Below are positions 1,781 through 59,800 of a DNA stretch of 64,000 bases, one piece after another. Location: positions 1,302,001 through 1,366,000 of the forward strand of contig OZ017766.1 of the NCBI GenBank assembly GCA_963969345.1. The letters run 5' to 3'. The notes beneath the pieces are model-generated. The model was not told where the DNA came from. It did no database searches and saw only the letters and a list, made by a program, of their open reading frames with translations. Numbering within the stretch: the stretch's first letter is position 1; each line of letters starts with the position of its first letter. This DNA comes from Turbatrix aceti (taxonomy: Eukaryota > Nematoda > Chromadorea > Rhabditida > Panagrolaimidae). A program made the translations under genes and the position numbers.

Positions 1781-4019
1781 TTCTGCCGTAAACGGCACTG
1801 TCTTGTAATGATGGCAGAAAAATACCGTATCGATCGCCGACAACGACGAACGATTACAGGTTATGGAGCGATCATGAAGGAACACTAAAAAATTATGCAC
1901 GGTTTTATGTGAAAAAAACACGTCAATGAACAGATATTTTTACCACAGTTCCTACGAAAGACGTCAGTTAAAACAGGTCTCACGGGGATTCCTATATCAC
2001 GTTTCTCACCCGGCAGCGCGTAGGAAGGAAACGGAACTCAAAGGCTTTGGGCTCGGTCCTCGGTCGGGGTGGGGTGCCAAGCATTTTGCAGATCTAGGAA
2101 AAAAGCAGAAAACTGCGGCCGGATGGATATGGACGGAACGTCAAAAAAATCAATGTACAAAAAACGCTCCATTCAACAAAACATTTTTTGATGCTAGCAA
2201 AACATTGTTCCGGGAAATGCCGGAAAAAAAGACATGTGCGTGTAGGGAAGTACAAAACACGACGAAACAAAAGAATGTTTATGTGAACGGAAACAAATTT
2301 TTTCTAGTGTCCGGAAAAGGCAACAAACGAGGGCAACATGTTGGAGTTTGACATGCCATCGGCGGTCATGCTGAACCAAATTCGTGACCACTAAAAATAA
2401 AGTTCCTGGCAAGGATAAAAAAGTTCAGACGGGAAAGAAATCATCACGTATTTTTCATCTAGGATAGATGTGAGATTTAAAAGAATGACAAATCCCAGCA
2501 AATGGATTATCAAAATGCAAGCAAGCACAGGATTTTTTTTGTTATTTTTAAGAAGTCAAGCAGGAGAGGGGACGGGGATTCCCCTCTGCAGCATCTCTCC
2601 GCCAGCCAGTCTCTCGCACTCTCTGGTAAATATGAAATGCTAAGCGACGACAACGACGAAGGCTTGTTCCTTTGGTTGTCTAAGCAAGCACCCCCAGCAG
2701 CAGCCGCAGTCACTCTCTGTGTGCTCTGTGATGCTAAATCTCATCTGACGACAAAAAAGAAAACCAACCTTTTATTACATTTTTTTGTTTTTCTCAGCTG
2801 TTGTTGTCGCAAAAAAGACCAAATACTATGAATTCAAAATTTGGACATCCAAATTTGTCATTGAAGCAAAGAACGCTACGTGCCTTCATCGTGATTGAGC
2901 AACGAAGGGCTCCGATATAAAAACAAGACTTTTGTGAAAAAAACGAGATGTCTTAAAGACTCATGGCAACCAGATTGCGCCTTTGTTTGATGTAAAACCA
3001 ACTGTATTAATTTTCCTCTCGCATCACGAGTATACTGAAACTTCCGGTGGTTGTCAGCACATGGTGAGTAAAATCTCAATACTTCCGGCTTATGTTTTTG
3101 TTACATTTTTCGAATGATTTTATCCCCCTTGCACCGGCATTTCCAGTAAGTAAAATCAAAGGTTTCAAGCATACAAATTTTTAAAATTTTTTACCAAAGA
3201 CCAAACGAGCTCCCGACTATTTATTGTCTGCAGGGTGCAATACATCATTTACACAGCAAATGAGATTAGCCAATACAACAAAATATATAATCAAAACTGC
3301 GGAAAAAAATATTTGTCAACTAGTAATACCGTGCAAATACTATTTTGACCGAAGCTGCACAATTTTCTGGTACACAACATTGGGCTTTTCCCGCGAACAA
3401 GCATATTATTCTATCAAAAACTATCGTATAATTGTGTTTTTTTTAGTTTACCAAACGCCGTCGTCATAAAACGAACCCTATTATGTATTCGCATAATCGA
3501 ATGTAATAAATTTTCTTCACATGCTTATTATGCATCTGAGTAGCACAACTAGCATCAGGGGGCGACAAAACGATCACTGACCTGTAGTGACTAATGGCGG
3601 GCTTGCTTTCATCTTTCGCATCCATAAACACGAGTCCTAAGAAAAGAATGGGGCTTGGAATTTGTCAGGAAAGCCCCTTCCCCGACAGCGTCGCCTTCAT
3701 TTCAGCCAGCAGGATGATCAGGCGTGAAACTGGTTCAGCTGCAGCTGCTGACGGTGCTTGCACACTGACATCAGTTGCACTTACGAGCACCGCACAACAC
3801 AGCTGGTTCGAGCAATTTTGTTTTATCTCTTTCACTGTTGTCCGAGAAAGCGAAAAAATACGTCTTGTTTTTTTCGGAGAGCAAGCAACAAACAAAATCG
3901 TTATCCATCATGCCGGAGAACTGGGTGCTAAATATGAGGGGTTCACACCTAGTGAATTGACCAAGAATTTGACCTAACTGTTCTCGTGCACTTGCGACGT
4001 ACATGCATTTTTTATGGGG
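1781..4019. other. Gene-free AT-rich stretch upstream of the SLC22 gene
   Basis: The sequence is T/A-rich with only short ORFs that have no recognisable domain, no convincing splice pattern and no partner exons. It probably holds the promoter of the SLC22 gene at its left end. I see no RNA gene in it. Confidence 0.5.
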
Positions 4020-4027
4020 GTAATCAG

Positions 4028-4349
4028 CAGACATGAAAATGGCCCGGCTCAGGCCCGGGCCGGGCTTGGGCGGGCCTGTGACTTTTCAGTAGGCCCCTAA
4101 AAGCCCGTTTTGGCCCGGGATTTAATCAATAATTTAAAAAATACGAAAAATTAACAGCATTTTGGTTATTTTTTACAAAATTTAGTCTCTACAGATAGAA
4201 AACATAGTATTTTTAGAAAAAACCAGTAATTTATGTTATTTATATAACGATTGGTTGCTATTTTTTTGGATAAAAATTTGGAAAAAAATACAGAATGGAT
4301 AATTTCGGGCCGGGCCTGGGCCTAAAAACTAGGCCCGTTTTCATGTCTG
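4028..4349. mobile_element. hAT-type MITE with 8-bp target duplication GTAATCAG
   Basis: A 322-bp element with 12-bp terminal inverted repeats CAGACATGAAAA, flanked by identical 8-bp copies of GTAATCAG at 4020-4027 and 4350-4357. Several GGCCCGGG-type motifs lie just inside each end, and the interior is AT-rich and non-coding. An 8-bp duplication, ends starting CAG and repeated subterminal motifs are typical of non-autonomous hAT-superfamily elements. Confidence 0.85.
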
Positions 4350-4654
4350 GTAATCAGCTGCTTTTATGGCTTTCAACAGCGCCATGCGTCATGCTTGGTC
4401 GAAAATTATGTATTCCCAACAAAAAATTTTTGTCATGCTTGAAATAGATACAAAAACCGAAAAAGAAATATTTTTTGGATACAGTAATTTTAGAAGTCAG
4501 GTAAAAGTGCATTGGAAATTTTGGCTTTTGGTTACTTTTGCACTTACGTAGCTCATCGGTTTCCAAACGCAGTCTACATAATATGTAGATGAGTAACTGA
4601 ACTGATGTGAAGGCAATTATCTGTCAACAGACAAAGAAATGATGTCTATACTTT

Positions 4655-4795
4655 TTTGTTTTAACAAAAACAAAAAAGTATTTGTTAAAACAAAAAAGAA
4701 AAAAAAAGTTTATTTTTTTTTTAAAGAAAAAAAAAGTTTATTTTTTTTTTTAAAGAAAAAAAAAGTTTATTTTTTTTTTAAATAAACTATACTTT
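4655..4795. repeat. A/T-only tandem repeat
   Basis: About three copies of a roughly 30-bp unit made of a long T run, TTTAAAG, a long A run and GTTTA, preceded by shorter AACAAAA motifs. It is low-complexity DNA with no coding potential. Confidence 0.8.
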
Positions 4796-5164
4796 AAAAA
4801 AAAAATATAAATTACTGGACAAAGAATTTCGATTTAATTTATTTTCGGAAATTCAATTTTATGGGATACAGATCAAAAAACAATTTTGATATTTGTGGAC
4901 AAGCAAAGACAAGAAAGGTGTCAATTCTACAAAAAAAAAGATTGCCCAATATTATTTAAAAACTCTGTTAGTTAGCACTTTTGTAGGTGGGTTTGTGAAT
5001 TACCGAAAGCGAAGAGCGTTGTCGAAAAACCCGTCAACAAATACGTTAATTCTGTAGGTAAAGAGACTGAGGAACCTCTGCTGACTGACTTTTTTCACAA
5101 AAAAACACACAACGACGGCAGGGAGGAAAAAAATCAGTTATTTTGAACAAAAAATATACACAAA

Positions 5165-5440
5165 ACAGTGGTGATCGCTTGGAGGACGTCCGGGCGGAGT
5201 ACGGTGGCGTAAGATCAAAGGAACTCCGTCAAGCACACATGAGACTCCTCAGTCGCATGAACGAAGCATGCTAAAACCCCCGAAGAGGATATCGACTGAT
5301 CTTTGGTTGCAGAGAAGAGCCCCAAAGTAAACAGTCGACTGGAAGGACGTCAACAAGGCTGACGGCAAGGACCTCATAGGATGCATGCGGGTCAGGTCAG
5401 AGGACCGGTCTTGGGCCCTGTCCCCGTTGAGGGTTAAAAA
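5165..5440. other. GC-richer island of unknown origin in AT-rich DNA
   Basis: Base composition changes abruptly here compared with both flanks. One plus-strand frame is open for about 35 codons (containing RLEDVRAEYGGVR) and then stops. The texture resembles exonic or retroelement-derived DNA, but I recognise no domain. It ends shortly before the palindromic element that starts near 5471. Confidence 0.35.
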
Positions 5441-5470
5441 AAATTTGTTTTTTGTTTAACAAATTTGTTT

Positions 5471-6500
5471 TAAGAGGGAGTCTGTGACAGGATTTTGGAA
5501 TAAGGTGGAGAGTGCGACCCCGTGAAAAAACAACTTCAAATGTTTTTAACCAAAGTTGTAGGCACCCCTATAGGATTGTTAAAAAAAATTATAAAAAATT
5601 TTTCAGATGCCGGATTCTGGAGATTTGGCTTCTGAAATGTTTTTTCGTTTTGAATTTTCAACTCAATTCTTAATAGAAGCAAAAATCTGAATTTAATTTG
5701 ACAAAGGTATTTTGGCACGAGGAATCGATTCCCGCACTCAGATTCCACAAAAAACATCTGTCCGCCCGGCAATTATTGTTTTTTTGTTTTTGTTTTCATA
5801 TTTTCCGCCAAAACATGCCTATTTCGTCCGAGGGGGAGGGCAAGGCATACCCTATCTTGAAGCCCGTTTTTTTTGCCATCGGATGAGCAAAAACACAAAA
5901 AATTCTATGTCGGTCCCGGTGACCAAAACAGGGAAAAACCCGTCAAAACGGTCAAAAAACTGACTACGCGCTGCGCGCATCGCGATGCGCACGCGGCGAC
6001 TTTTGGTGTGCTTTGCGTTCTCGTTGTTTTTTAACGACCATTTTGACGGTTTTTCCATGTTTTGGTCACCGGGACCGACATAGAATTTTTTGTGTTTTAG
6101 CTCATCCGATGGCAAAAAAAACGAGCTTCAAGATAGGGTATGCCTTGCCCTCCCCCTCGGACGAAATAGGCATGTTTTGGCTGAAAATATGAATACAAAA
6201 ACAAAAAAAACATAATTGCCGGGCGGACAGATGTTTTTTGTGGAATCTGAGTGCGGGAATCGATTCCTCGTGCCAAAATACCTTTGTCAAATTAAATTCA
6301 GATTTTTGCTTCTATTAAGAATTGAGTTGAAAATTCAAAACGAAAAAACATTTCAGAAGCCAAATCTCCAGAATCCGGCATCTGAAAAATTTTTCATAAT
6401 TTTTTTTAACAATCCTATAGGGGTGCCTACAACTTTGGTTAAAAACAATTGAAGTTGTTTTTTCACGGGGTCGCCGGTCCAAAATCCTGTCACAGACAGG
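5471..6500. mobile_element. Palindromic element A (about 1 kb, arms about 480 bp)
   Basis: The left arm (about 5481-5960) is the reverse complement of the right arm (about 6028-6497), separated by a short GC-rich spacer. Matching segments such as 5536-5772 and 6216-6452 encode almost the same 78-residue string on opposite strands and lie in exact register about a centre near 5994. The outer end reads AAGAGGGAGTCTGTGACAGG. A diverged relative lies at 57.4-58.8 kb. No transposase is visible. This is a fold-back-like, non-autonomous DNA element; its superfamily is unresolved. Confidence 0.85.
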
Positions 6501-8676
6501 CTTTTAAAGTTTCAGGCACAAAAAATAAATTAAAAAAAATCAAAACAGGAAATCATAAAAACTTAACCCAGATTAAATTTCTTTCGTCATCTTATCACGC
6601 GTAAACTTGTCATCATTCGAGCAAATGTAAGCTTTAGCCCAAACAAAGTGGCCTAACATCTGAACGTTTTGGTTAAAAAATCATTTTTTTTAATATCAAA
6701 CCGTAACGTTACAATGTGTTAAATTACGCTTAATAGTATATTACGTTAAAAACCCTTCAAAATTATCAACAGCGATTCGCATTTTCTAAATCTGAAAACG
6801 TGCCTCCTTTCTGGATACTGCGTCATTTATTTTATCGGCTTTGTGTTAGCAAAATATTAAAAAGTTGAAATTTTGAAGGTTTAGCGTTAAACTCGACAGC
6901 TAGCCTTCAAAAAATCATCAGAAAGTCATAAATTTTGTTTTCAATTCAGTGAAAAGGTAAATAAAAAGAATTTTTAAAGAATAGCTTCAGACGAAGCTGT
7001 GCAAAAACAAAAGGAACAATGACATTGTCGTTATTGGATAAGAAAATAAAAAATAAATATAAAGAAACTATGTAGAAAACATCTCGCTCCTCAGAATATC
7101 ATGTTTACAAAACAAAAAATAATAAAATTTGACAGAGGATAAGAAATGCGACAGGAAAATCCTCTTGCACGTGAAGCCAGACGCGACCGCAATCAAGCAG
7201 CAGACAAGCCAGCAGAAAGCAGCCGAATGCTTTCATTCCTGCTTTCTTTCTTTACTAATGCATTTGAAGGCCTGTCTATGCCACACACAGAACATACCAG
7301 CCAGCGAGAGAGGGAGAGAGAAAAAAAAGAGAGTCGATGGATTACTCGAAGGGAAGAAGAGACGGGAGTTGCAGGAAATATGTGCTGAATAGCAATACAC
7401 CAGACCGGCAGACTAGCTTGTTTGCTCGTTCGCCAAACGCCTGCGAGCCCGGAGGATAAACTTCCTGGCATCAAACACCCTATTTGGTTTGTCTGCCCGA
7501 GGGACGGATGGATAGCTTTTGTGCCAATAGGCACTGAAAGGCGTTTTGTTATCATTGACGGTTCAAAAAACCCTGGAGAATTTTGTACTTCAAAAAACCC
7601 TGGAGAATTTTGTACTTCAAAAAACCCTGGAGAATTTTGTACTTCAAAAAACACTGTTTTACATCAGCTGGAACACAAAGATGATAAAAACGATTATGTA
7701 CCTAGATACAGAATCTCAGAGCTGCACACTCTGGGGGCAGTAGCGCAAAAGGCCTCCAGGACTTCTCGACTCCGAAGTCCGCGTCGACATCCATCGACAG
7801 AGCTGGACGTCCCCTGGAATCGCATTATGATATATTGTAACAGATCCAAAATTCTGCCCCCCCCCGATTCGAAATTTCTGCACTCGAGTCAGGTTATATT
7901 TATATTTTTTTTCTGTTTAAGGAAAGGAATTTTCTGAGCTAAACTGCTTATTAAAAAAATTTTCTTTTGAATTTTTGGTCTTATAAAGTTAACACAACTA
8001 TTAGCGAATGAAAGGATACAAATTAGTAACTTTTGATCCTTGTTCATTCTGTAAAAAGAATGACAACAAGAAATTTCATCGAGTCCGGATTTTAGGAGGT
8101 TTATCCGGGGACAACAGTGCTGCAAGCAACGTTTTCTGGGATATCCAATTTAATAGTGCCTGCTTGCTTGTTGTACACAAAAAAAATGAAATTGTTCTCA
8201 AACAAACAATAAGAAACGCATTTGTTTCCGAGAACGAAAATAGATAATTTAGACATAATCGTTTGCAGACGTGCAAAAATGCAAAAACTTGTTTCGCTTT
8301 CTTTGCGAAAAAAACAAAGATTAGATATTTAAAAACTCAAAGCATGTGTCAAAAATTGGAATTCAAGTTGTATTCTTTCTGGCGTGATCTAAGAAAAAGG
8401 AATCTGATATACATGTGACGTATTTTTAATCATGTTGAAATTTAAACAATGAAGTCTTTGTAAACACAGCAGTCGTTGTAGCAGGCATTGCAGTCAAATT
8501 ATTTTCCAGCCAAATTATTTTCTAAACCTTGTACCTGATGACGATCGAACACAACACACGGGTTGATCTTTGTGCACGCGAAAACATTCGAGACTACAAG
8601 TCGCGTAGCGTACGAACAAAAAGCAAAAAGGAGTTTGCTGGATAAGACAGTTCGTGAACAGATTCCCGTCCACATC
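6501..8676. other. Gene-free stretch upstream of the dienoyl-CoA reductase
   Basis: AT-rich sequence with a 27-bp tandem repeat near 7.6 kb and a G/A-rich patch near 7300-7370. The ORFs inside have no recognisable domains. The last few hundred bases probably contain the promoter and leader of the reductase gene. Confidence 0.45.
7562..7651. repeat. 27-bp tandem repeat, just over three copies
   Basis: A 27-bp unit (AAAACCCTGGAGAATTTTGT plus ACTTCAA) repeats head to tail without spacers. The period is a multiple of three, so one forward frame (7422-7937) stays open and reads KNPGEFCTS three times, but nothing else supports a gene there. Confidence 0.85.
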
Positions 8677-9721
8677 ATGGCTGCCGCTTGCAAGACCCCC
8701 GAAAAATTCTTTCGCGCGGTCAAGACTCCCGCACTTCCTCAAAATGCCCTTGCTGGCAAGCTGGCACTCGTGACCGGTGGGGGCACGGGACTCGGACGAG
8801 TCATGGCGACGACTTTTTCTCTGCTCGGAGCGAACGTTGTCATCGCAGCCAGGTAAACCGTTTCTCATTTTCTTTGCGCTTTACTTGTTTTTTTAGGCGT
8901 CTGGAAGTTCTCCAAAAAACCTCTGCTGAAATCACAGCACAGTCGGGGAATCCTGTGTTGCCGGTCCAGCTTGACGTCCGTCAGCCAGAGCGCGTCGCGG
9001 CACTCTACGATGCCATTCAAGATCGCTTCGGGCGACTGCCTAATATTGTAATCAACAACGCCGCTGGCAACTTCATCATGGCGACGGAGCGGCTGTCGCC
9101 GAATGCTATCAAATCGGTCATCGAAATCGTTCTTCTGGGCACGTTCAACGTCACTACAGAGCTCGGCCGTCGCCTTATCAATTCAAAGGCCCCTCACGAT
9201 GGCTGTGCCTTCCTTAACATCACGACGCCCTATGCGCGCCACGGTTCGTCCTTCGTCGTGCCTTCTGCGACCGCAAAGGCAGGCGTTGAGACGCTGGTTC
9301 GCTCGTTAGCCGTCGAATGGGCCAAATATGGCATGCGCTTCAACGTTGTCGCCCCTGGGCCGATACCGACTGAAGGCGCTTTTGGTCGGCTCTCTGACAA
9401 GTCCATTGACGAGATGAAAGCTCAAGCTGGATCCACGGTGCCCCTGGGAAGGTGTGGGGAGCCAGAGGAGCTCGCCAACCTTGTGTCTTTTATTTGCAGT
9501 GATTATGGGTCATGGATCAATGGGGCCGTGGGTTTTTGACCACCTTTGCGTACAAGGTATAAAAATTTTTTCAGATCATCGATTTTGACGGCGGACAGCA
9601 GTTCAACGGTCAGGGATCGTCGATTGGAGGCGAGCATTACCACAAAATCACACCCAAAGGCTGGGCAGAAGTCGAAAATCTCATCCGTGGGCGAACCGGC
9701 AAGGAGAAGTCAAAAATGTAA
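8677..9721 (+). CDS. 2,4-dienoyl-CoA reductase (DECR1-like SDR)
   Basis: NADPH-dependent short-chain dehydrogenase that reduces 2,4-dienoyl-CoA esters during beta-oxidation of polyunsaturated fatty acids. Exons 8677-8852, 8897-9527 and 9575-9721 encode 317 residues. The Rossmann cofactor loop GGGTGLG lies near residue 49, NNAAGNF follows, and the C-terminal third carries the DECR signature WINGA-IIDFDGG. The second donor is GTGGGT, chosen because it restores the conserved WINGAxxxFDGG spacing. The ATG at 8677 sits just before the conserved N-terminal PEKFF region; an in-frame ATG at 8563 would add 38 residues. The protein ends in SKM, a variant peroxisomal targeting tripeptide, so peroxisomal location is possible although the closest relatives I know are mitochondrial. 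No neighbouring gene shares the pathway. Confidence 0.9.
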
Positions 9722-11455: not shown

Positions 11456-11760
11456 TTGCTGTATGGAGGGAGACGCAGCGAACGTCGAGAATAACCCGCC
11501 TAAGCCACTGGAAGCCGCAAGACCAGCCAGTGCCTCCGACCGCGCCAAAGAACAAGCGTCCGCCAGGCCACCCTCCGAGGCGATGGACCGACGACTTTGC
11601 GGCCTTCCAGAACGCTCCTGCTAAGGACTACGACGTGACGCAGGTAGCTACGATTGACGGCGCCCTCTTCGTGCAATCTCGATACTCATCACTGTCTCTT
11701 TGATTTTGTAATGAGTAATTATGCACGAGTAAGAGTAATAAAGTAAAGTAAAGTGAAGTA
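11456..11760 (+). mobile_element. 3' end of a non-LTR retrotransposon (RTE-like), fragment 1
   Basis: A plus-strand frame to 11703 reads ...PPGHPPRRWTDDFAAFQNAP... and stops, resembling the C-terminal tail after the reverse transcriptase of RTE-type LINEs (GRPPxRWxDD). It is followed by a short 3' UTR that ends in AGTAAAGTAAAGTGAAGTAA. The fragment is truncated at its 5' end. A second copy in reverse orientation lies at 13086-13253. Confidence 0.7.
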
Positions 11761-11996
11761 AAAACTGTCTACCGTGCAACAATGATTGCACTTTCAGTCA
11801 CAGTAAACCATATTAATCATTTGTACTATGTCTCATGTCTTCAAATGTCTCCTGGCTGCTCTACTCCAGCGACAAAAAACATTATCGCGTGCAAGCTTCA
11901 ATAATATGCCCCTCGTGCTTTTTTTGCTATGCAATTGCACTGGAATCTACAAAATCAAGGGTCCAATGTTCTCGCGTTCATTTGCTTAACAATAGG

Positions 11997-13082
11997 ATGG
12001 TTGAAGCAGGCCAGATGTCTCCTTATATCTACAATCTTGTCACTCTCGTCGCTTACGTCGTCACCGGAGTGAGTATCGTACTGTACATTCTTATCATGTA
12101 TATTCTATTTACACGAAAGTCACTTAGATCATCTTTCTACACAATTTTCAATTTCGTCATCGTGGGAAATTTTTTTCTGATGTTCAGTATGATGATGTTC
12201 TACATTCCCAGAACACCGTTTTTTACCGGTTTTATGCATGCACTTCCTGAAAAGCATTTTTTGATCACATTTACAATTTTTGTGTACTACTACCTGGGAT
12301 ACTACACCGCGCATGCTTCACTCGTAATGAGTTTCAATAGGTTTACGGTGTTTAAGCTTCACGTACATTACCGTAAATTTTGGGAAAGGGCAATACCATG
12401 GTCAATTGCCTTTATCGTGCTCATACCATTTATTTTGTCGGGAAATACGTGGTTTCATGGATACATCATCAAATCTCATCCGGCCCTACCGACCGGTAAG
12501 ACATGGGCTAGCACGCGGGTGCTCGTATTCGCGCAAGCTGACATTATCTTTTACCACTTCAACGCTATATCCGTCATTGACCTTGTCATGAATCTGATCT
12601 GTATTCATGATCTCATAATGCAAAATAGGAAAAAGTTAACCGGCAATGCAAGAACCAGCAAAGAAGACAGACGGCTATTTGGCATTTCACTTGTCTTATT
12701 TTTGATTCAGTCAATACAAGCTGTTCTGATTGTAAGTAATTGCTTTTGACTTCGGAAACAACCACCCATTTCTAGTACATGTCTCAGATAGAGTTGCCTG
12801 GGGTCTATCGAGACTTGCTGTATACCGGAATTTGTTACTCCCAAACCCTCCGAAGCATCAGCCCGGCATGGTGCATGCTACTGCTTAATTCTGTGGTTCG
12901 AAAAGAAATTGTATGTTTCCCAAACGTCATTGTACTACGGTATACTGAAAATACAATTTTAGAAGCGCATCTTTGGAATCAATAAAGTCGGTGACAGCAC
13001 TACCTTGCAAACCCAGCAGTCTAAAACATCCAAAACAAATGAGGGAACAAATTCAACCCCTCCTGTAAGACCCCAGTCGTGA
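11997..13082 (+). CDS. Srg-family chemoreceptor GPCR, copy A
   Basis: Seven-transmembrane receptor resembling the nematode serpentine class gamma (Srg) family, expected in ciliated sensory neurons. Exons 11997-12731, 12776-12910 and 12963-13082 give 329 residues. TM1 is LVTLVAYVVTGVSIVLYIL; SSFYTIFNF, PRTPFFT and MSFNRFTVFKL follow, and NRF near TM3 occupies the place of the E/DRY motif. The C-terminal exon is polar (Ser/Thr/Asn-rich tail). The start was chosen by alignment to copy B (13816): both reach QMS at residue 6 and have identical lengths for exons 1 and 2. Introns are 44 and 52 nt. A LINE fragment is inserted exactly at the stop codon, which survives inside the target duplication. 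The seven-helix call is firm; the subfamily rests on recalled Srg motifs. Confidence 0.8.
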
Positions 13083-13085
13083 TAC

Positions 13086-13253
13086 TTTACTTTACTTTAC
13101 TTTATTACTCTTACTCGTGAATAATTACTCATTACAAAATCAAAGAGACAGTGATGAGTATCGAGATTGCACGAAGAGGGCGCCGTCAATCCTAGCTACC
13201 TGCGTCACGTCGTAGTCCTTAGCAGGAGCGTTCTGGAAGGCCGCAAAGTCATC
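13086..13253 (-). mobile_element. LINE 3' fragment 2 with 10-bp target duplication
   Basis: A reverse-oriented, 5'-truncated copy of the fragment at 11456-11760: the plus strand starts TTTACTTTACTTTACTTTAT and continues with the complement of the same 3' UTR and coding tail. GTCGTGATAC is duplicated at 13076-13085 and 13254-13263, showing a target-primed insertion. The left duplication overlaps the stop codon of the upstream srg gene. Confidence 0.85.
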
Positions 13254-13263
13254 GTCGTGATAC

Positions 13264-14964: not shown

Positions 14965-15491
14965 TGATTTTTTGAATATCTATGATTCAATTATTTTTAA
15001 AGTGTCATGCCATTTTTCATTTGATCAAAAAAATTGCTAAAAGTTTTTTGTAAAAAAAGCGGTAAATGCAACAGATATAAAATATAAAAATGGGTATACG
15101 TCACACGTATCGTCAACTTGGGAAAGGACTGCATGTCAGCTTGTAGTTTGTCCAATTCCCAGTAAAAAATATATAGTACATAATCTTTACTTCAGACAAT
15201 TTCCGCAGACACGTCGTAAAAAAGTTTCATGTGTTAGTTTTTGGACAAAAATAGAGTTGACACAATATGTAGGAGATTTGTCAAACGGTCAGCAAAAACC
15301 TGATTATTGCGTAGACATGAAATACTAATTTCGTCCCTTTTTTAAAAATTATGAACATTAAAAACATTTCAAAATAAGAACATGATCGTAACTATTTGAT
15401 CTTTGTTTTCAAGCCTCGAGCCGCATTTTCTCAGCAGACAATCACCCCCCTTCCGGCGCAGTTGCAAACCGCTTGCATCCTTGGTTTAAAG
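14965..15491. other. 3' flank of srg copy B
   Basis: AT-rich sequence, no coding signal and no repeat that I recognise, up to the target duplication of the palindromic hAT-like element. Confidence 0.5.
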
Positions 15492-16126
15492 CAGAGATGG
15501 CAAAAAAGTGATCTGATGGGTTTGATCGCGTACTTTTCACAACCAATTGAAATGAAGTAATGCAAAGTTATAGTGCCAAGGGTAGTAATTACATTTGAGA
15601 TATTATAATTTGCTTAGCGCATTAATTGGCATAATGACGCGCGCCGTAATTAACGTTTTTTAAACTTTAAAAATTTTATTTCTCAAAAACTACTGCACTT
15701 TTAGAAACGGATGACATATCATTCGACTCAGTTTTTCATGGGAAATTTTATAAAAATATAAAAAGGATAGTTCACGATTTAAAATAATGCCGAAATAAAA
15801 AGTGCCATTTTGACATTTTTAGTTTGGCACTTTTTTAAATCGTGACCCCTCCTTTTTATATTTTTATAAAATTGCCCATGAAAAACTGAGTCGAACGATA
15901 TGCCATCCGTTTCAAAAAGTGCAGTAGTTTTTGAGAAATAAAATTTTTAAAGTTTAAAAAACGTTAATTACGGCGCACGTCATTATGTCAATTAATGCGC
16001 TAAGCAAATTATAATATCTCAAATGTAATTACTACCCTTGGCACTATAACTTTGCATTACTTCATTTCAATTGGTTGTGAAAAGTACGCGATCAAACCCA
16101 TCAGATCACTTTTTTGCCATCTCTGG
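15492..16126. mobile_element. Palindromic hAT-type MITE with 8-bp target duplication GTTTAAAG
   Basis: A 635-bp element that is inverted-repeat almost to its centre (near 15809). Ends are CAGAGATGGCAAAAAAGTGA and the reverse complement, flanked by GTTTAAAG at 15484-15491 and 16127-16134. The 8-bp duplication and CAGAGATGGC start fit the hAT superfamily. A few mismatches between arms (for example GGATAGTTCACG against GGAGGGGTCACG) show modest age. There is no ORF. Confidence 0.9.
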
Positions 16127-16134
16127 TTTAAAGT

Positions 16135-37676: not shown

Positions 37677-40600
37677 ATGACAACAGATGCAGTTACAAAG
37701 GTTTGTTTTATTAAAGGACGCGTCCGTTTAGCTTCGCGAGTTTCCCTCCCATCCTTCCTCTACTTTTGTAGTTCGATGACGTGTTATAGCGTGGAATGAA
37801 CTTCTCATGCTGGAGCAACTCCTGTGCGCGCTATTTTTGTTGTTACAAGCTCTGAACTCTATTCTCACTCGCAGTTTGAAAGCAATATGCGAATGCGCGC
37901 GAAAATGGATTTTCAAAAAAATGAAATATTGTTCAGCGCGCGTTGGCCGAATTAGTTGCAAAAAAAGGATTTTGGGCCAAATTTGAAAATTTTTACCTTT
38001 TCAAATTAGATTTGTAATTAGAATAATATTTGAAGCATTTTGATTTGTTTTTCAGAATTGTGGGACAATTTTTGATCAAAATCGAGTAGGGTTCGGAAGA
38101 AAAAATCCACGGATCTTCAAAATATAGATAGAAAGCTGAAAATTTCAGGGTAGACTAAAAACAAAATTTCCTTTCGAATGGCTTACTCAGTTTTTTGATA
38201 TCGATTCGATAAATGTTCGAAAAAACGGTTTTTTTCGGAAATTTGAAAAATTCGGAACTTTTTAGAAACTTGATCAAAAAATAAATATCACCAATCGAAG
38301 GAGCAGTATCTTTTTGATCTACTGTAAAATTTTCAGACATTTACCATATCTCGTGGGCATACGGTAGCGATTCTCCCGAACCCTACTTGTTTTAGCGCCT
38401 GAGGCTATAAAGTGAAGCACTACGGAACAAAGTGAAATAGAGCATCTTGTTAGAAATTTTTTGGCCTACAAAATGTTGTAACTCCTGAATTTTTATCTAT
38501 TTTTTTGGCTTCGCAATTTTCGTTCGCGCAACATACACTCATTTTTGGTACAAATTTTCCGAAAATTGAAATCGAAAAAGGGGGGTTCGGGGGAAAAATC
38601 GTTGTTCAGCGAGTTTTGGGATGTTATAGCACGAACCTCGACCTGGGATGTAAAAAGCCCTGTAGAATTCAAAAAAAATATTATTATGTTCCTAAAAATT
38701 CGAAAAAGTTCCGAAAAATGCTTCTTTTTTGAAAATTTGAAAATTTAGAAACTTTACGGTCCAAATGAAAATAAATAAATATCCCCATCGAATTTAGAAT
38801 TCATTTTTACTACTATACTGAAATTTTCAGCAATATTGCTTTCAAACTGAACGAACGGCGATTTTTCCCCCGAACCCCCCTTTTTCGATTTCAATTTTCG
38901 GAAAATTTGTACCAAAAATGAGTGTATGTTGCGCGAACGAAAATTGCGAAGCCAAAAAAATAGATAAAAATTCAGGAGTTACAACATTTTGTAGGCCAAA
39001 AAATTTCTAACAAGATGCTCTATTTCACTTTGTTCCGTAGTGCTTCACTTTATAGCCTCAGGCGCTAAAACAAGTAGGGTTCGGGAGAATCGCTACCGTA
39101 TGCCCACGAGATATGGTAAATGTCTGAAAATTTTACAGTAGATCAAAAAGATACTGCTCCTTCGATTGGTGATATTTATTTTTTGATCAAGTTTCTAAAA
39201 AGTTCCGAATTTTTCAAATTTCCGAAAAAAACCGTTTTTTCGAACATTTATCGAATCGATATCAAAAAACTGAGTAAGCCATTCGAAAGGAAATTTTGTT
39301 TTTAGTCTACCCTGAAATTTTCAGCTTTCTATCTATATGTTGAAGATCCGTGGATTTTTTCTTCCGAACCCTACTCGATTTTGATCAAAAATTGTCCCAC
39401 AATTCTGAAAAACAAATCAAAATGCTTCAAATATTATTCTAATTACAAATCTAATTTGAAAAGGTAAAAATTTTCAAATTTGGCCCAAAATCCTTTTTTT
39501 GCAACTAATTCGGCCAACGCGCGCTGAACAATATTTCATTTTTTTGAAAATCCATTTTCGCGCGCATTCGCATATTGCTTTCAAACTGCGAGTGAGAATA
39601 GAGTTCAGAGCTTGTAACAACAAAAATAGCGCGCACAGGAGTTGCTCCAGCATGAGAAGTTCATTCCACGCTATAACACGTCATCGAACTACAAAAGTAG
39701 AGGAAGGATGGGAGGGAAACTCGCGAAGCTAAACGGACGCGTCCTTTAATGGCGTGTGAATAACATTTGTCATCTATTTTAGAAAATTGATCAACTGCAG
39801 CTATCGCATGGCTTGTTGTTTGGCCCAAAAACCGTTAGTTCAGGCGAATTGCCCGCTGCTGCCACGCTGATTGCCTGGTTGCGGAGAGCTGAGGGTTTTG
39901 CTGATTTGAAACTGTTGGAGAGCTTTCTCCCTGCAGGTTTGCCTAATTTTTGCACTTCACAAGTTTTTTTGACTTTTAGGCATTTCTTACGTCGGATCAA
40001 CGGATGACACCAGCTTACAAGATGCTGAAAAACCCGCAGAAATGTCTGCATCCATTCCTTGTTCTGAAAAAAAGGTTTTCAAAGTTACGATCCCCATAAA
40101 CGTATCCGACGTCACCGCTGACCAAGTCACCGTTGCCGGGGACGACATTACGATCAGTCAGCCAAACGCGTCGACCGAGGCATTCACCATCGAGCTCGAA
40201 ACTTTGCCCGATGCCGATCCTGTTGAATCTGTGCTCAGACTTGCCATCCAGGTTCAGGCATTTGTCGCCAAATCACCCGTGACACCGGATGCTTTGACTC
40301 ACTCAAAGCTGTTCACTTTTTCCGACGTATCGCAGCCTTTTGTGGTACTCGTTAATAATGCGACATCGGAGCCCGCTCTCTCGAAAGAGTTGAAGCAGCT
40401 GGTGCCGACAAGTGTTACTCTTCAACTGCCGGGTGCGTTTTTTGGCGTACCATTTTGTTAGTGTTTTGTGCCTCACATTTTTGGGTCTTTGTTTTTCCAT
40501 TTGTTACGATACTTTTGTGGTTTTATTCTTTCCTTTATTGCATTGTTTTTTAGAATTCTCTACAATCCCGACCCCTGACTTCGGATCGTTGTTGATTAGC

Positions 40601-41206
40601 CCGCACAAAACGGTGCCGCACAAGGCGAAGGACCTCTACGCCGTCATCCAAAGCGACTACGCCTACTACCACTACATGTGCGACGGCTTCGACGACTCCG
40701 GCTGGGGCTGTGCCTATCGCAGCCTACAGACGATTTGGTCGTGGCTGCAGTTGAAGGGCCGTGCCCGACGACCTCCTCCTGACCACCGTGAGATCCAGGA
40801 ATCCCTCGTCGCATGCGGTGACAAGCAGGCCAACTTTGTCGACTCGCGTGGATGGATCGGGAGCTTTGAGATCTGCTACGTCCTTCAGAACCTCGCAGGC
40901 GTAGAATCGCGCACGCTATCGTCGTCGTCAGGCAAAGAGGTCGACGAACACGGTCGTGCCCTTGTCTATCACTTCCAGCACGACGGAGCACCCGTCATGA
41001 TCGGTGGCGGCTCGTATGCACACACGATCATTGGCGCAGATTACAACAGAAGGAGCGGGGAGTGTGAATTCCTCATTTTAGATCCACACTACACGGGCAA
41101 GGATACCCAGGCTGCCGCCGTCAAGGGAGGAGGCATCGTATGGAAGACCAAGAAGTTTTTCGATCCCAAGTCTCATTACAATCTGTTGTTTGTTACCAAT
41201 CCTTGA
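37677..41206 (+). CDS. UFM1-specific peptidase 2 (UFSP2)
   Basis: Cysteine protease that matures UFM1 and removes it from substrates. Exons 37677-37700, 39783-39936, 39980-40432 and 40554-41206 give 427 residues (human UFSP2 has 469). The C-terminal peptidase domain is diagnostic: DDSGWGCAYRSLQT holds the catalytic cysteine, GWIGSFEICYVLQ follows, GGSYAHTIIG has the histidine, and LILDPHYTG contains the Asp-Pro-His element. The N-terminal half (KIDQLQLSHGLLFGP onward) corresponds to the weakly conserved substrate-binding region. Exon 1 encodes only MTTDAVTK; its phase and the short residual intron support it. Intron 1 carries a 2,039-bp palindromic element. The next gene downstream is an inactive rhomboid on the same strand. 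Confidence 0.92.
37711..39749. mobile_element. Near-perfect 2-kb palindromic element inside UFSP2 intron 1, TTAA duplication
   Basis: Arms 37711-38601 and 38859-39749 (891 bp each) are reverse complements in exact register about 38730, with a 257-bp loop. Identical predicted peptides occur at 37728-37961 (minus) and 39499-39732 (plus), and at 38155-38340 and 39120-39305. I found only scattered mismatches (for example near 38120 versus 39338). Ends read TTAAAGGACGCGTCC, consistent with a TTAA (or TTA/TAA) target duplication. No transposase ORF exists, so it is non-autonomous; the superfamily is unresolved. Confidence 0.92.
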
Positions 41207-56800: not shown

Positions 56801-59800
56801 CGACCACGATTTGCAACGGACCTCTTCGCCCGGGATCAGGGTATAGGTTCAAGCTGAGGCTCTACACAGCACCCAATCTGTGGACTGATACGCTGTATTC
56901 GGATGTCGTGGTTACAGGTTGGTATATTTTTTTAACGGGATATCCAATTCTGCGGACTTATTTTTATTCCAATTTTACATAAAAAAGTAATGACGCACGT
57001 GTGTGGGACCGTAGGTGGATAAAGTGATGAAATCTAAGCAGATTAACTACAATTTAACATTACATCATTTTCTCATGTTTCATTACCTTTTAATAACATC
57101 TATCTGCCAAGCACCGGTGCTGGGAAAGAAGGATTTGATACTTATGCATACTTTTATTCTCTCTACTGCTAACGTAAGACAGATTGCATTATTTACGGAG
57201 CGATGAATCTCAGGGATCTGTAATTCTGAAATGAACAACTTTGAAGAACGTAATCTTAGAATTTTGTTTGCCTGGGTTTATGTGTTGCCATAAATTATTC
57301 GCTATTATTTGATAATTTTTTTTCCGGAAGAAAAAAATCTTGAACGTAGCCAAGATAAACAGACACTCTGCAAGCCGATTTGGGATCGGCGGCCCAGCTA
57401 ATTTACAACTTCAAATGTTTTGTGCCCAAGTTGTAGGGGGTCTATGGGAGACTCCAAATGGGCCATGATAGATTTTTCAGATGCCGGATTCTGGAGCTAG
57501 GGCTTCTCGAATGTTTCGACGTCAAAATTTCAAACTGCTTTTAAAAATCTGATTTTTTGCATACAGGGGTATCTTGGCACGTGCAATCGACTGGTGTATT
57601 TAGTTTTCTCAAGAAACATCTGACTTGTTTGAAAAAATTGATTTTCTTCGATTTACCTGTATTTACCGTCAAAACTTGGCTGCAGCGTCCGAGAGAGGAT
57701 TCTCCAGCGGGTTTTGACACCGGAATCTGAAAGCCCGTCTTTTTTGACGTCGATTGAGGTATTACACAAAAAAAATTATGTCCCTTTATTTGACCAACGC
57801 TGGGCTTGTATGGCGCGCACTTGAGAAAAAAACACCTTTGTCGAGTTTTAGAATTGAATATTTTTATTGTTTTAAAAATCTGATTTTTGGTTTCCGGGGG
57901 TAGTTTGGCACAAGAAATCGACTGGTGTATTCAGATTTCTCAAAAAAACATCTGATTTTTATGAAAAACTTGATGGTTGATGTTTTACTGTTATTTACCG
58001 GCACAAAATTGGCTGCAGCGCCCGATGGAGAATCTTCTAGGCAGCTTTGATGCCAGAATCGGTTTCCCCATCTTTTTCGACGTCGATTGATGTATAACAC
58101 AGAAAAATTGAGGTGCCTTTCTTTGACCATAGCCAGGTTTTTATCGCGCGCACTTGGTGCAAACACCTTTTTTTGCGTCACTGGCCGAAAAAGACGTGCG
58201 CGCGCGTAACAGGAGTCATGTTCAAAAAAAAGCCCTGAAGCCAATTTTTGTTTTATATGCTCACGGTCACCTGGGTGTGTTCAGGCATGTCCCAAATATT
58301 GTTTTTAGCGACCTGCGCTGATCATCCGATTATTTTGTGTATTGTCACTGGCATTATGTATTATTATAATTAAAGCGGTAAATTGCGATATTTCAGTTTC
58401 ATGTTTTTTCAATACACAAAATAATCGGATGATGAAAAAATCAATTTTTTTTAAAAATGCAGATGTTTTTTGTTGTAGTTTCATTTAACGTGCAGGTACA
58501 ACATTTTTTGAGAAAACTAAATACACCAGTCGATTTCCCGTGTCAAGATACTCCTGTATGCCAAAAATCAGATTTTTAGAAGCAGTTTGAAATTTTGACG
58601 TTGAAACATTCGAGAAGCCCTAGCTCCAGAATTCGGCTTCTGAAAAATCTGTCATGGCCCATTTGGAGTCTCCCATAGACCCCCTACAACTTGGGCACAA
58701 AACATTTGAAGTTGTAAATTAGCTGGGTCGCGGCCTCCACCTTATTCCAAAATCGGCTCGCAGAGTCCCTCTTAAAAATAGAAGGCAATTTGTCACTTGA
58801 GTGGGATATTGATAACCCATTAAAGCCCACACAACAGTTGGGGTGAAAGTTGAAGGGGTTTATGGCTTTTGTTTATGATATCTCCCTCTTTCTCCCCCGC
58901 CCGCCCGCTCGCCTGTCTGTCTTCAAGTCACGAGAAGGATGTCGAGTTGTTGTTATGTAGTCAGTCAAATTGCTAAAACATATGAGATTAATTTGTGTTT
59001 GTTTGGGTACAAAGAGGTTTGCTCCATTTTTATATTCAATTTAACACTCCCTCTCTCTATCCACTATAAAATACTTACAACCCCTTCGACTTAATGTTTA
59101 GCCTGCACGGCACTGCACGTAGAACCAAATTTTTTTCTTGATTTTTGTGTGCTGAAAAGAGAGGATGTAGGGGGGTGCAAATTGCAGTGTAAGCACGCAA
59201 GAAAAAAAGTGATAAAATAACACCCCCACAAGTTTGATGCACGCCTGCTGCCGCGGCGTGTGCCGTACACGGAAAGAAGAAGAAACCGATGGCGAGAAAA
59301 AAAGAGTCTTGTGTGTATTATGTAAACGCTCTAGTATTTTTTCTTTCTCTATGGACCAAAACTGCAGGGAAGAAAGGAAGGAAAAGGACCCGGATGGGAG
59401 GCAATGAAGAGAAAGGCGAAGAATATTATGTTGAACGAAAAATAGGTCCTTTTTCTGAGAATGAGAAACAAGTTGCAAAAAAATGGAACTTTAAAAATGG
59501 AACGCGAATTTTTGAACTAAAGTTTTATGGCTTTGATAAATGTTGATTTAAAATATTTATTTAGACAAAAAAATAAATTTGTTTTTTAGTTTTATGATTT
59601 CTTTCCCCTTTCAAAAAAAAATCTTATTCCAGTTTAAATAAAATCGTTTCGAAACTAACATTTTATGACGTCGAACAAACAACATCCATTGATGATTTTC
59701 TACTGATATAAAAAAGAACGTAAACTCTAATGCCCCACCCCATCTTTGCAAACATGGAATTATTTTGTGTAAAAAACGGCTTTGCATTTTGCATTGACCA

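Follow-up and report, generated by a model that had tools for sequence, protein, structure and literature searches.

Among described systems, the Galileo transposons of Drosophila have very long inverted arms, and proposals made for them include chimeric copies and the lengthening of arms by conversion (PMC2775673, PMC3573991). In the parts of these two reports that treat arm divergence, the within-copy values are 0.0018 and 0.0071 for copies 1 and 2, against 0.067-0.069 between these two copies, while copies 4 and 5 have within-copy values of 0.063 and 0.057. The passages concerned ascribe to Galileo a P-type transposase (PMC3169594) and a target duplication of 7 bp (PMC3573991). The Tm1 Mutator/foldback elements of root-knot nematodes are described, in the relevant part of PMC3169594, as having arms made of short tandem motifs, asymmetric 7-bp tips and target duplications of mostly 9 bp. 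For Kolobok transposons, the sections of PMC6004289 and PMC9587614 that cover them list a TTAA target, 5'-RR ends, a DDE transposase, a THAP domain and a C/DxxH motif that is shared with MuDR and others.

We analyzed a long palindrome at the 5' end of a gene in Turbatrix aceti, within a stretch of 64,000 nucleotides referred to here as the window. As in Galileo, so far as the cited passages describe it, members of this family have very long inverted arms, and the two arms of one copy can be each other's closest relatives; arms more alike within than between copies were found in the window and, in all, in 8 of the 21 copies with full arms. In contrast to the P-type transposase and 7-bp duplications reported for Galileo, the window element is bounded by TTAA, and whereas the Galileo chimeras in those passages are between subfamilies of a single element, the core studied here occurs with two different end types. 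Tm1 resembles these elements in being a foldback-like DNA transposon of nematodes, and its 8-10-bp duplications recall those of the relatives of the window element that end in GGTRAAGGGTC; compared by its published description, in the part noted above, it differs from the window element in its tandem-motif arms and in duplications that are mostly 9 bp and not TTAA (PMC3169594). New here are the episodic concerted evolution of the arms and the presence of one palindromic core under two end types. In the literature searched, which extends to few of the subscription journals, we saw no account of one palindrome core shared by two end types.

The palindrome in UFSP2 intron 1

The gene to the right of the palindrome had been named UFSP2 from its letters alone, and the name holds. 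It encodes a Peptidase_C78 domain (E 6.9e-58), solved UFSP structures match it at up to 3.8e-61, and its best protein match is from Halicephalobus sp. NKZ332 (75%), which points to a nematode host related to Halicephalobus.

Comparison of mirrored bases confirmed that the near-perfect 2-kb palindrome is real, with ungapped arms of 892 nt each, a single mismatch (38121/39339) and a loop of 257 nt, and an inverted-repeat search concurred, giving a 907-nt inverted pair at 99% identity. The sequence-only reading had described 891-bp arms in exact register about a 257-bp loop; register and loop stand, and the arm length is corrected to 892 nt with one mismatch. The start it gave for the finding, 37677, is the start codon and not the palindrome edge, which lies at 37710. 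The outermost A/T pair (37710/39750) falls outside the TTAA and may be due to chance. By our judgement, an 892-nt arm pair is far beyond chance expectation, and given this length and the presence of the same palindrome structure elsewhere in the genome, we took the palindrome to be non-chance. It is a non-coding mobile element.

Long palindromes are prone to misassembly, and a structure of this kind could be produced by an inverted chimeric read or by duplication of one arm in the library or the assembly. We consider such an artefact highly improbable here. The TTAA-bounded structure is found again at two sites far away, each with arm sequences of its own, and the arms stop at TTAA (plus the one possible chance pair) in such a way that excision leaves a plausible intron, whereas nothing would make an artefact end at that point.

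Table 1. Positions in the window of the palindrome, its parts and the surrounding UFSP2 exons.
Feature	Positions	Strand	Basis
Predicted UFSP2 exon 1, 8 residues	37677..37700	+	ATG in frame with exon 2 across GT-AG intron
Predicted UFSP2 intron 1, 2082 nt (47 nt without the element)	37701..39782	+	gene model
Left palindrome arm, 892 nt	37710..38601	+	mirrored-base comparison
Outer left arm, only in TTAA-type copies and degraded relatives	37710..37933	+	boundary approximate
Left TTAA target duplication	37711..37714	.	comparison of intact copies
Left terminal motif AGGACGCGTCC, Kolobok-like 5'-RR	37715..37725	+	comparison of intact copies
Core shared whole or in part with GGTRAAGGGTC-ended copies	37938..39522	.	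~88-89% whole stretch, ~88-91% per arm
Loop, 257 nt	38602..38858	.	mirrored-base comparison
Right palindrome arm, 892 nt, 1 mismatch to left arm	38859..39750	-	mirrored-base comparison
Outer right arm, mirror of 37710-37933	39527..39750	-	boundary approximate
Right terminal motif, inverted AGGACGCGTCC	39735..39745	-	comparison of intact copies
Right TTAA target duplication	39746..39749	.	comparison of intact copies
Predicted UFSP2 exon 2	39783..39936	+	gene model
Predicted UFSP2 exon 3	39980..40432	+	gene model
Predicted UFSP2 exon 4, Peptidase_C78 domain	40554..41206	+	gene model and domain/protein matches

When the element was taken out together with one TTAA, an in-frame 47-nt GT-AG intron remained, starting with GTTTGT and ending with TATTTTAG, which reproduced the excision product that had been proposed. 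The remaining introns of the model measure 43 nt (intron 2) and 121 nt (intron 3), and the pertinent portion of PMC6872716 gives a mean intron of 473 nt for Halicephalobus mephisto. That 47 nt is a normal intron size here, as had been claimed, is plausible.

The predicted first exon has only eight residues. An in-frame TAG lies directly 5' of exon 2, exon 2 contains no Met, and the first downstream in-frame Met is in exon 3, so that an upstream start codon is needed if exon 2 is to keep its 51 codons; for these reasons the 8-residue exon is favored. Such an exon, if the gene model is right, would be consistent with insertion into the intron. We also weighed a different 5' end for UFSP2, with the palindrome in upstream intergenic or untranslated DNA and position 39783 acting as the acceptor for another exon or for trans-splicing. 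Nematodes trans-splice leaders, and a protein search that could have confirmed the N-terminus found no homologue of UFSP2 residues 1-230 among 2651 candidates at E <= 1. We nevertheless judge a different 5' end unlikely, as exon 1 reads in frame to a GT donor, intron 1 once restored is close in length to the 43-nt intron 2, and exon 2 needs an upstream start.

In the minimum-energy fold of the 2082-nt intron (-1653 kcal/mol), 889 of the 892 arm bases paired with their mirror partners; by coordinates, 9 nt of the intron precede the stem and 32 nt follow it. In the pre-mRNA the arms would be expected to pair and the insert to loop out, possibly holding the splice sites close together, and on this model splicing may be little disturbed by the hairpin. 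A near-perfect 892-bp RNA hairpin would then lie between exons 1 and 2 of a gene of the UFM1 pathway, which would offer a natural setting in which to ask how such RNA is edited, silenced or bypassed by splicing in worms.

Intact copies, TTAA ends and a candidate helper

As the sequence-only reading had suggested, we searched the whole genome (59.9 Mb in 28 contigs) with the arm and obtained at least 48 matches, with the best 40 of 267 candidates scored. These included two further intact copies, L009 and L010, which have the same outer arms and carry TTAAAGGACGCGTCC at both ends, as well as a degraded fourth copy (L032) and a degraded fragment (L033). The exact 15-mer TTAAAGGACGCGTCC occurs seven times in the genome; six occurrences are the ends of the three intact copies and the seventh is in L032. 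TTAA was present at both ends in all three intact copies, and the flanks outside TTAA were, by eye, unrelated among the three. A constant TTAA alone cannot separate a target duplication from a fixed element end. A search of the assembly for an empty allele, using the joined flanks, returned only the two flanks of UFSP2 itself.

The claim of a recent insertion into a short intron can be upheld as to the insertion, given the two intact TTAA-bounded copies in unrelated flanks and the in-frame 47-nt intron restored by excision. Its recency cannot be drawn from arm identity alone, since in this palindrome family the arms are copied onto each other. We consider it likely that the palindrome is a non-coding DNA transposon, a long foldback MITE, that inserted at an intronic TTAA and duplicated it, and that the transposase which moved it in trans was most likely of the Kolobok type. 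The element would have landed at the TTAA of the 47-nt intron, and the transposase would have acted on the AGGACGCGTCC ends. The insertion is an ordinary event that is unusually legible, with a short intron before it and a 2-kb hairpin intron after it.

Judged by its termini, the element is probably of the Kolobok type. The ends AGGACG...CGTCCT agree with the 5'-RR / YY-3' terminus rule set out for Kolobok in the section of PMC9587614 that gives it. Kolobok and T2-type MITEs, in the portions of PMC6004289 and PMC9587614 that list them, have in common with the window element the TTAA target and 5'-AG / CT-3' ends, and several of the listed Xenopus ends start with AGGAC. Unlike them, the window element is almost wholly palindrome and shares its core with differently ended elements.

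A candidate for the helper was found at L030, where TTAAAGGACGCGTTC ends lie 7.4 kb apart and inverted arms of ~1.9 kb, in two blocks 98-99% identical, enclose a central gene. After removal of two predicted introns of 39 nt each, the first 434 residues of the encoded protein matched PF20700 (Mutator-like transposase) at 46.6 bits, above the cut-off of 26.5; the unspliced frames alone scored 23.4 and 19.2. By eye the protein has a THAP-like C2CH pattern (C-x2-C...C-x2-H) and a CxxH motif; together with putative DDE features, these would add to the likeness to Kolobok, in an element with nearly the same terminal 15-mer as the window element. In contrast to known Kolobok elements, the identity of the helper here rests on a short terminus, and the L030 protein gave no match to the Pfam THAP model at E <= 1. 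A protein search for a Kolobok identity with the first reading frame of L030 gave none among 4672 candidates at E <= 0.001.

The terminal 15-mers of the window element and L030 are identical at 14 of 15 positions, and the two share no other similarity, so L030 is a thinly linked candidate for a Kolobok-type helper. There were seven one-mismatch matches to the 15-mer, against nine matches with up to one mismatch for the same word read backward. What singles out L030 is position and not match count. L031 is a related palindrome of 3.6 kb that shares the ends of L030, and the four one-mismatch 15-mers in these two loci are placed at the tips of long inverted arms, where a chance match is not expected. 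The last part of the L030 coding region, which includes the presumed last E, is separated from the rest by a ~412-bp dispersed repeat, and the transposase may therefore be non-functional. This repeat occupies ~5335-5746 inside the transposase gene; 19 other listed places match it over most or the whole of its length, with identities of 97-100% at all but one. When the central region of L030 was used as a DNA query (best 40 of 55 candidates scored), no second full copy was recovered; apart from the repeat, L031 gave a match of 115 bp and C5 a partial one at 68%.

The element might instead be a TTAA-specific transposon of another superfamily, either piggyBac or an unknown one, which we regard as rather unlikely. 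PiggyBac likewise duplicates TTAA, according to the part of PMC9587614 that deals with it, and the link to the L030 transposase consists of one 15-base terminus with 14 matching positions; the AG...CT ends, however, fit the Kolobok rule of the same source. A search with the piggyBac profile PF13843 gave no match in the genome, and none in the control genomes either.

Arms are homogenised in part of the copies

We compared the arms of 28 copies, the window and 27 that were fetched, with the wider L045 and L044 replacing L026 and L027. Within single copies the core arms differed at between 0 of 664 and 57 of 539 sites. The window arms have one core difference from each other and 13 from the nearest other arm. 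Of 60 variable gap-free columns among the TTAA-type copies, which number three, 33 show agreement between the two arms in each copy. Between the window and L010, 27 of the 29 variable gap-free arm sites were changed in both arms, while between the window and L009 the change was concerted in 12 of 38 variable columns; L009 kept 25 differences between its arms, 19 of them in a short block. A re-pairing control yielded 0 of 60 concerted columns, a near-trivial outcome of its construction to which we give no weight as evidence. In a further case, both core arms of L042 equal the left arm of L043 (0/664), whereas the right arm of L043 differs from its left arm at 18/664 sites and resembles the right arm of L039, a pattern that points to one arm having been overwritten.

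Arm copying is episodic and not constant. The nearest neighbor of 36 of the 56 arms is an arm of another copy (30 on the same side, 6 on the opposite side) and that of the other 20 is the partner in the same copy, with some ties in the assignment; in 13 of the 21 full-arm copies the two arms are not closer to each other than to any other copy's arm, and in 8 they are. The same-side neighbors, which mean that many copies keep distinguishable arms matching the same sides of other copies, would suit an account in which arm identity reflects youth only, perfect palindromes having been made once, all copies being recent and no arm being copied onto another. That account is improbable in view of the 27 of 29 sites at which the window and L010 differ in both arms, the 8 of 21 copies that violate the order expected of independently evolving arms, and the enlarged copies described below, in which most variable columns outside the element ends were changed in both arms.

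Arm-to-arm copying is the reading we retain. Most likely, a single strand of the element folds back, or one arm templates the repair of the other, so that the copy becomes symmetric; we infer that homogenisation proceeds by such fold-back copying or by gene conversion between arms, at the time of replication, repair or transposition. Galileo sets a precedent for concerted arms and is also the closest one for the mechanism. With mirrored substitutions as the trace of arm copying, fold-back and gene-conversion models of the origin and spread of palindromic MITEs become testable from sequence.

At 18 sites only the right arm of L009 differs from the window, and most of these lie in a block at element positions 559-653. 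The GGTRAAGGGTC-ended relatives have the L009 base as their majority at 12 of the 18 sites and another at 5, with no majority at 1. We rejected gene conversion from that family into L009, because the identity of its right arm to the relatives is about the same in the block (0.895) as outside it (0.906); three other TTAA-type arms tested fall to 0.78-0.81. It appears more likely that L009 kept older sequence in this block.

One core under two kinds of ends

The core of the window palindrome, whole or in part, was shared by 25 fetched copies without the outer arms, at ~88-89% over the whole stretch and ~88-91% per arm, and the 15-mer TTAAAGGACGCGTCC is absent from all 25 loci. Where these copies have ends, the ends are GGTRAAGGGTC; 17 copies have both, and in 8 one or both are unrecognisable. 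Exact target duplications were present in 12 of the 17 two-ended copies, of 8 bp in 7 and of 9 bp in 5, and the remaining 5, which are composite, had none. Two of the 12, L014 and L015, share one set of flanks, so the independent duplications number 11; this pair, whose core arms are identical and whose flanks match although the sites on C4 are far apart, is a duplicated segment carrying the palindrome. The 17-mer GGTRAAGGGTCRGACCG has 75 exact occurrences genome-wide and its reversed control has none. With core-sharing copies that have other ends and other target duplications, one palindromic core travels under two end types, which suggests how non-autonomous elements could outlive the loss of a transposase.

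A target duplication of 8-9 bp is a criterion for Merlin elements, and we take the 8-9-bp duplications and GG ends of the GGTRAAGGGTC relatives to be reminiscent of Merlin. A Merlin transposase was tried as their helper and rejected, the sole PF12762 match, in L034, having no GGTGAAGGGTCGGACC end within 3 mismatches. A looser end pattern at L034 gave one match against 1.7 expected by chance, and a search for the gene's own element ends found only short or imperfect inverted matches. The match itself (PF12762, 60.9 bits), at 4306-4968 of L034, represents a lone transposase gene of the IS1595/Merlin type, flanked by two diverged frames that by eye resemble ABC transporters.

In six copies (L012, L017, L020, L024, L028 and L037) one arm is cut short at one common position; all six share the right flank and ~1.4-1.5 kb of sequence upstream, so that the palindrome is carried within a larger repeat. 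L016 shares this right flank too, with N bases at its junction.

Five copies (L039, L042, L043, L044 and L045) have arms of 1.58-1.71 kb that continue past the GGTRAAGGGTC ends. The flank beyond these ends is mirror-symmetric, TCAGAATTTTTT...AAAAAATTCTGA, without an 8-9-bp duplication, and the outer flanks are shared as well, so we treat the five as copies of one larger repeat and count them as one event. The 560 bp that adjoin the element ends on the outside contain 7 variable gap-free columns; 5 were changed in both arms (three changes private to L042 and two to L045) and 2 in one arm only. A search with the 879-bp outer arm matched 15 stretches. Of these, 13 directly abut a GGTRAAGGGTC end, the remaining 2 are found immediately outside two of the 13, and none was a stand-alone parent of the enlarged palindromes. 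The enlarged palindrome of L044 is enclosed in a composite repeat of 6 kb (3000-8984), whose outer inverted arms, 618 bp long, begin with TACAGTGCGTTCAG, an arm start that we take to be Tc1/mariner-like.

The enlarged palindromes look like what copying that overran an element end would leave, and may be the nearest thing to an intermediate in a change of ends. The occurrence of the core with TTAA/AGGACGCGTCC ends, with GGTRAAGGGTC ends and inside larger palindromes with mirrored flanks leads us to propose, tentatively and as a possibility we rate below even, that palindromic transposons can change their transposase. An end of a second transposon type would be gained on one side of a palindromic core, and arm copying would mirror it onto the other arm, which would open the core to the action of a different enzyme. 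None of the fetched copies had one end of each type; we infer the change of ends, in either direction, from the sequences.

Palindromic repeats of C. elegans such as PALTTTAAA are non-coding and have AT-rich targets. Going by this general description, they resemble the window element as non-coding nematode palindromes with an AT-rich target. The window contains another palindrome at 15485-16132 (~649 bp, 95% self-complementary) with TTTAAA on both sides, which we take to be reminiscent of these repeats. A self-complementary stretch of ~960 bp (93.6%) with GCGACCCCGTGAAAA ends is present at 5514-6474, and two more inverted pairs lie at 57389-58731 (228-bp arms, 95%) and 11589-13254 (172-bp arms, 98%).
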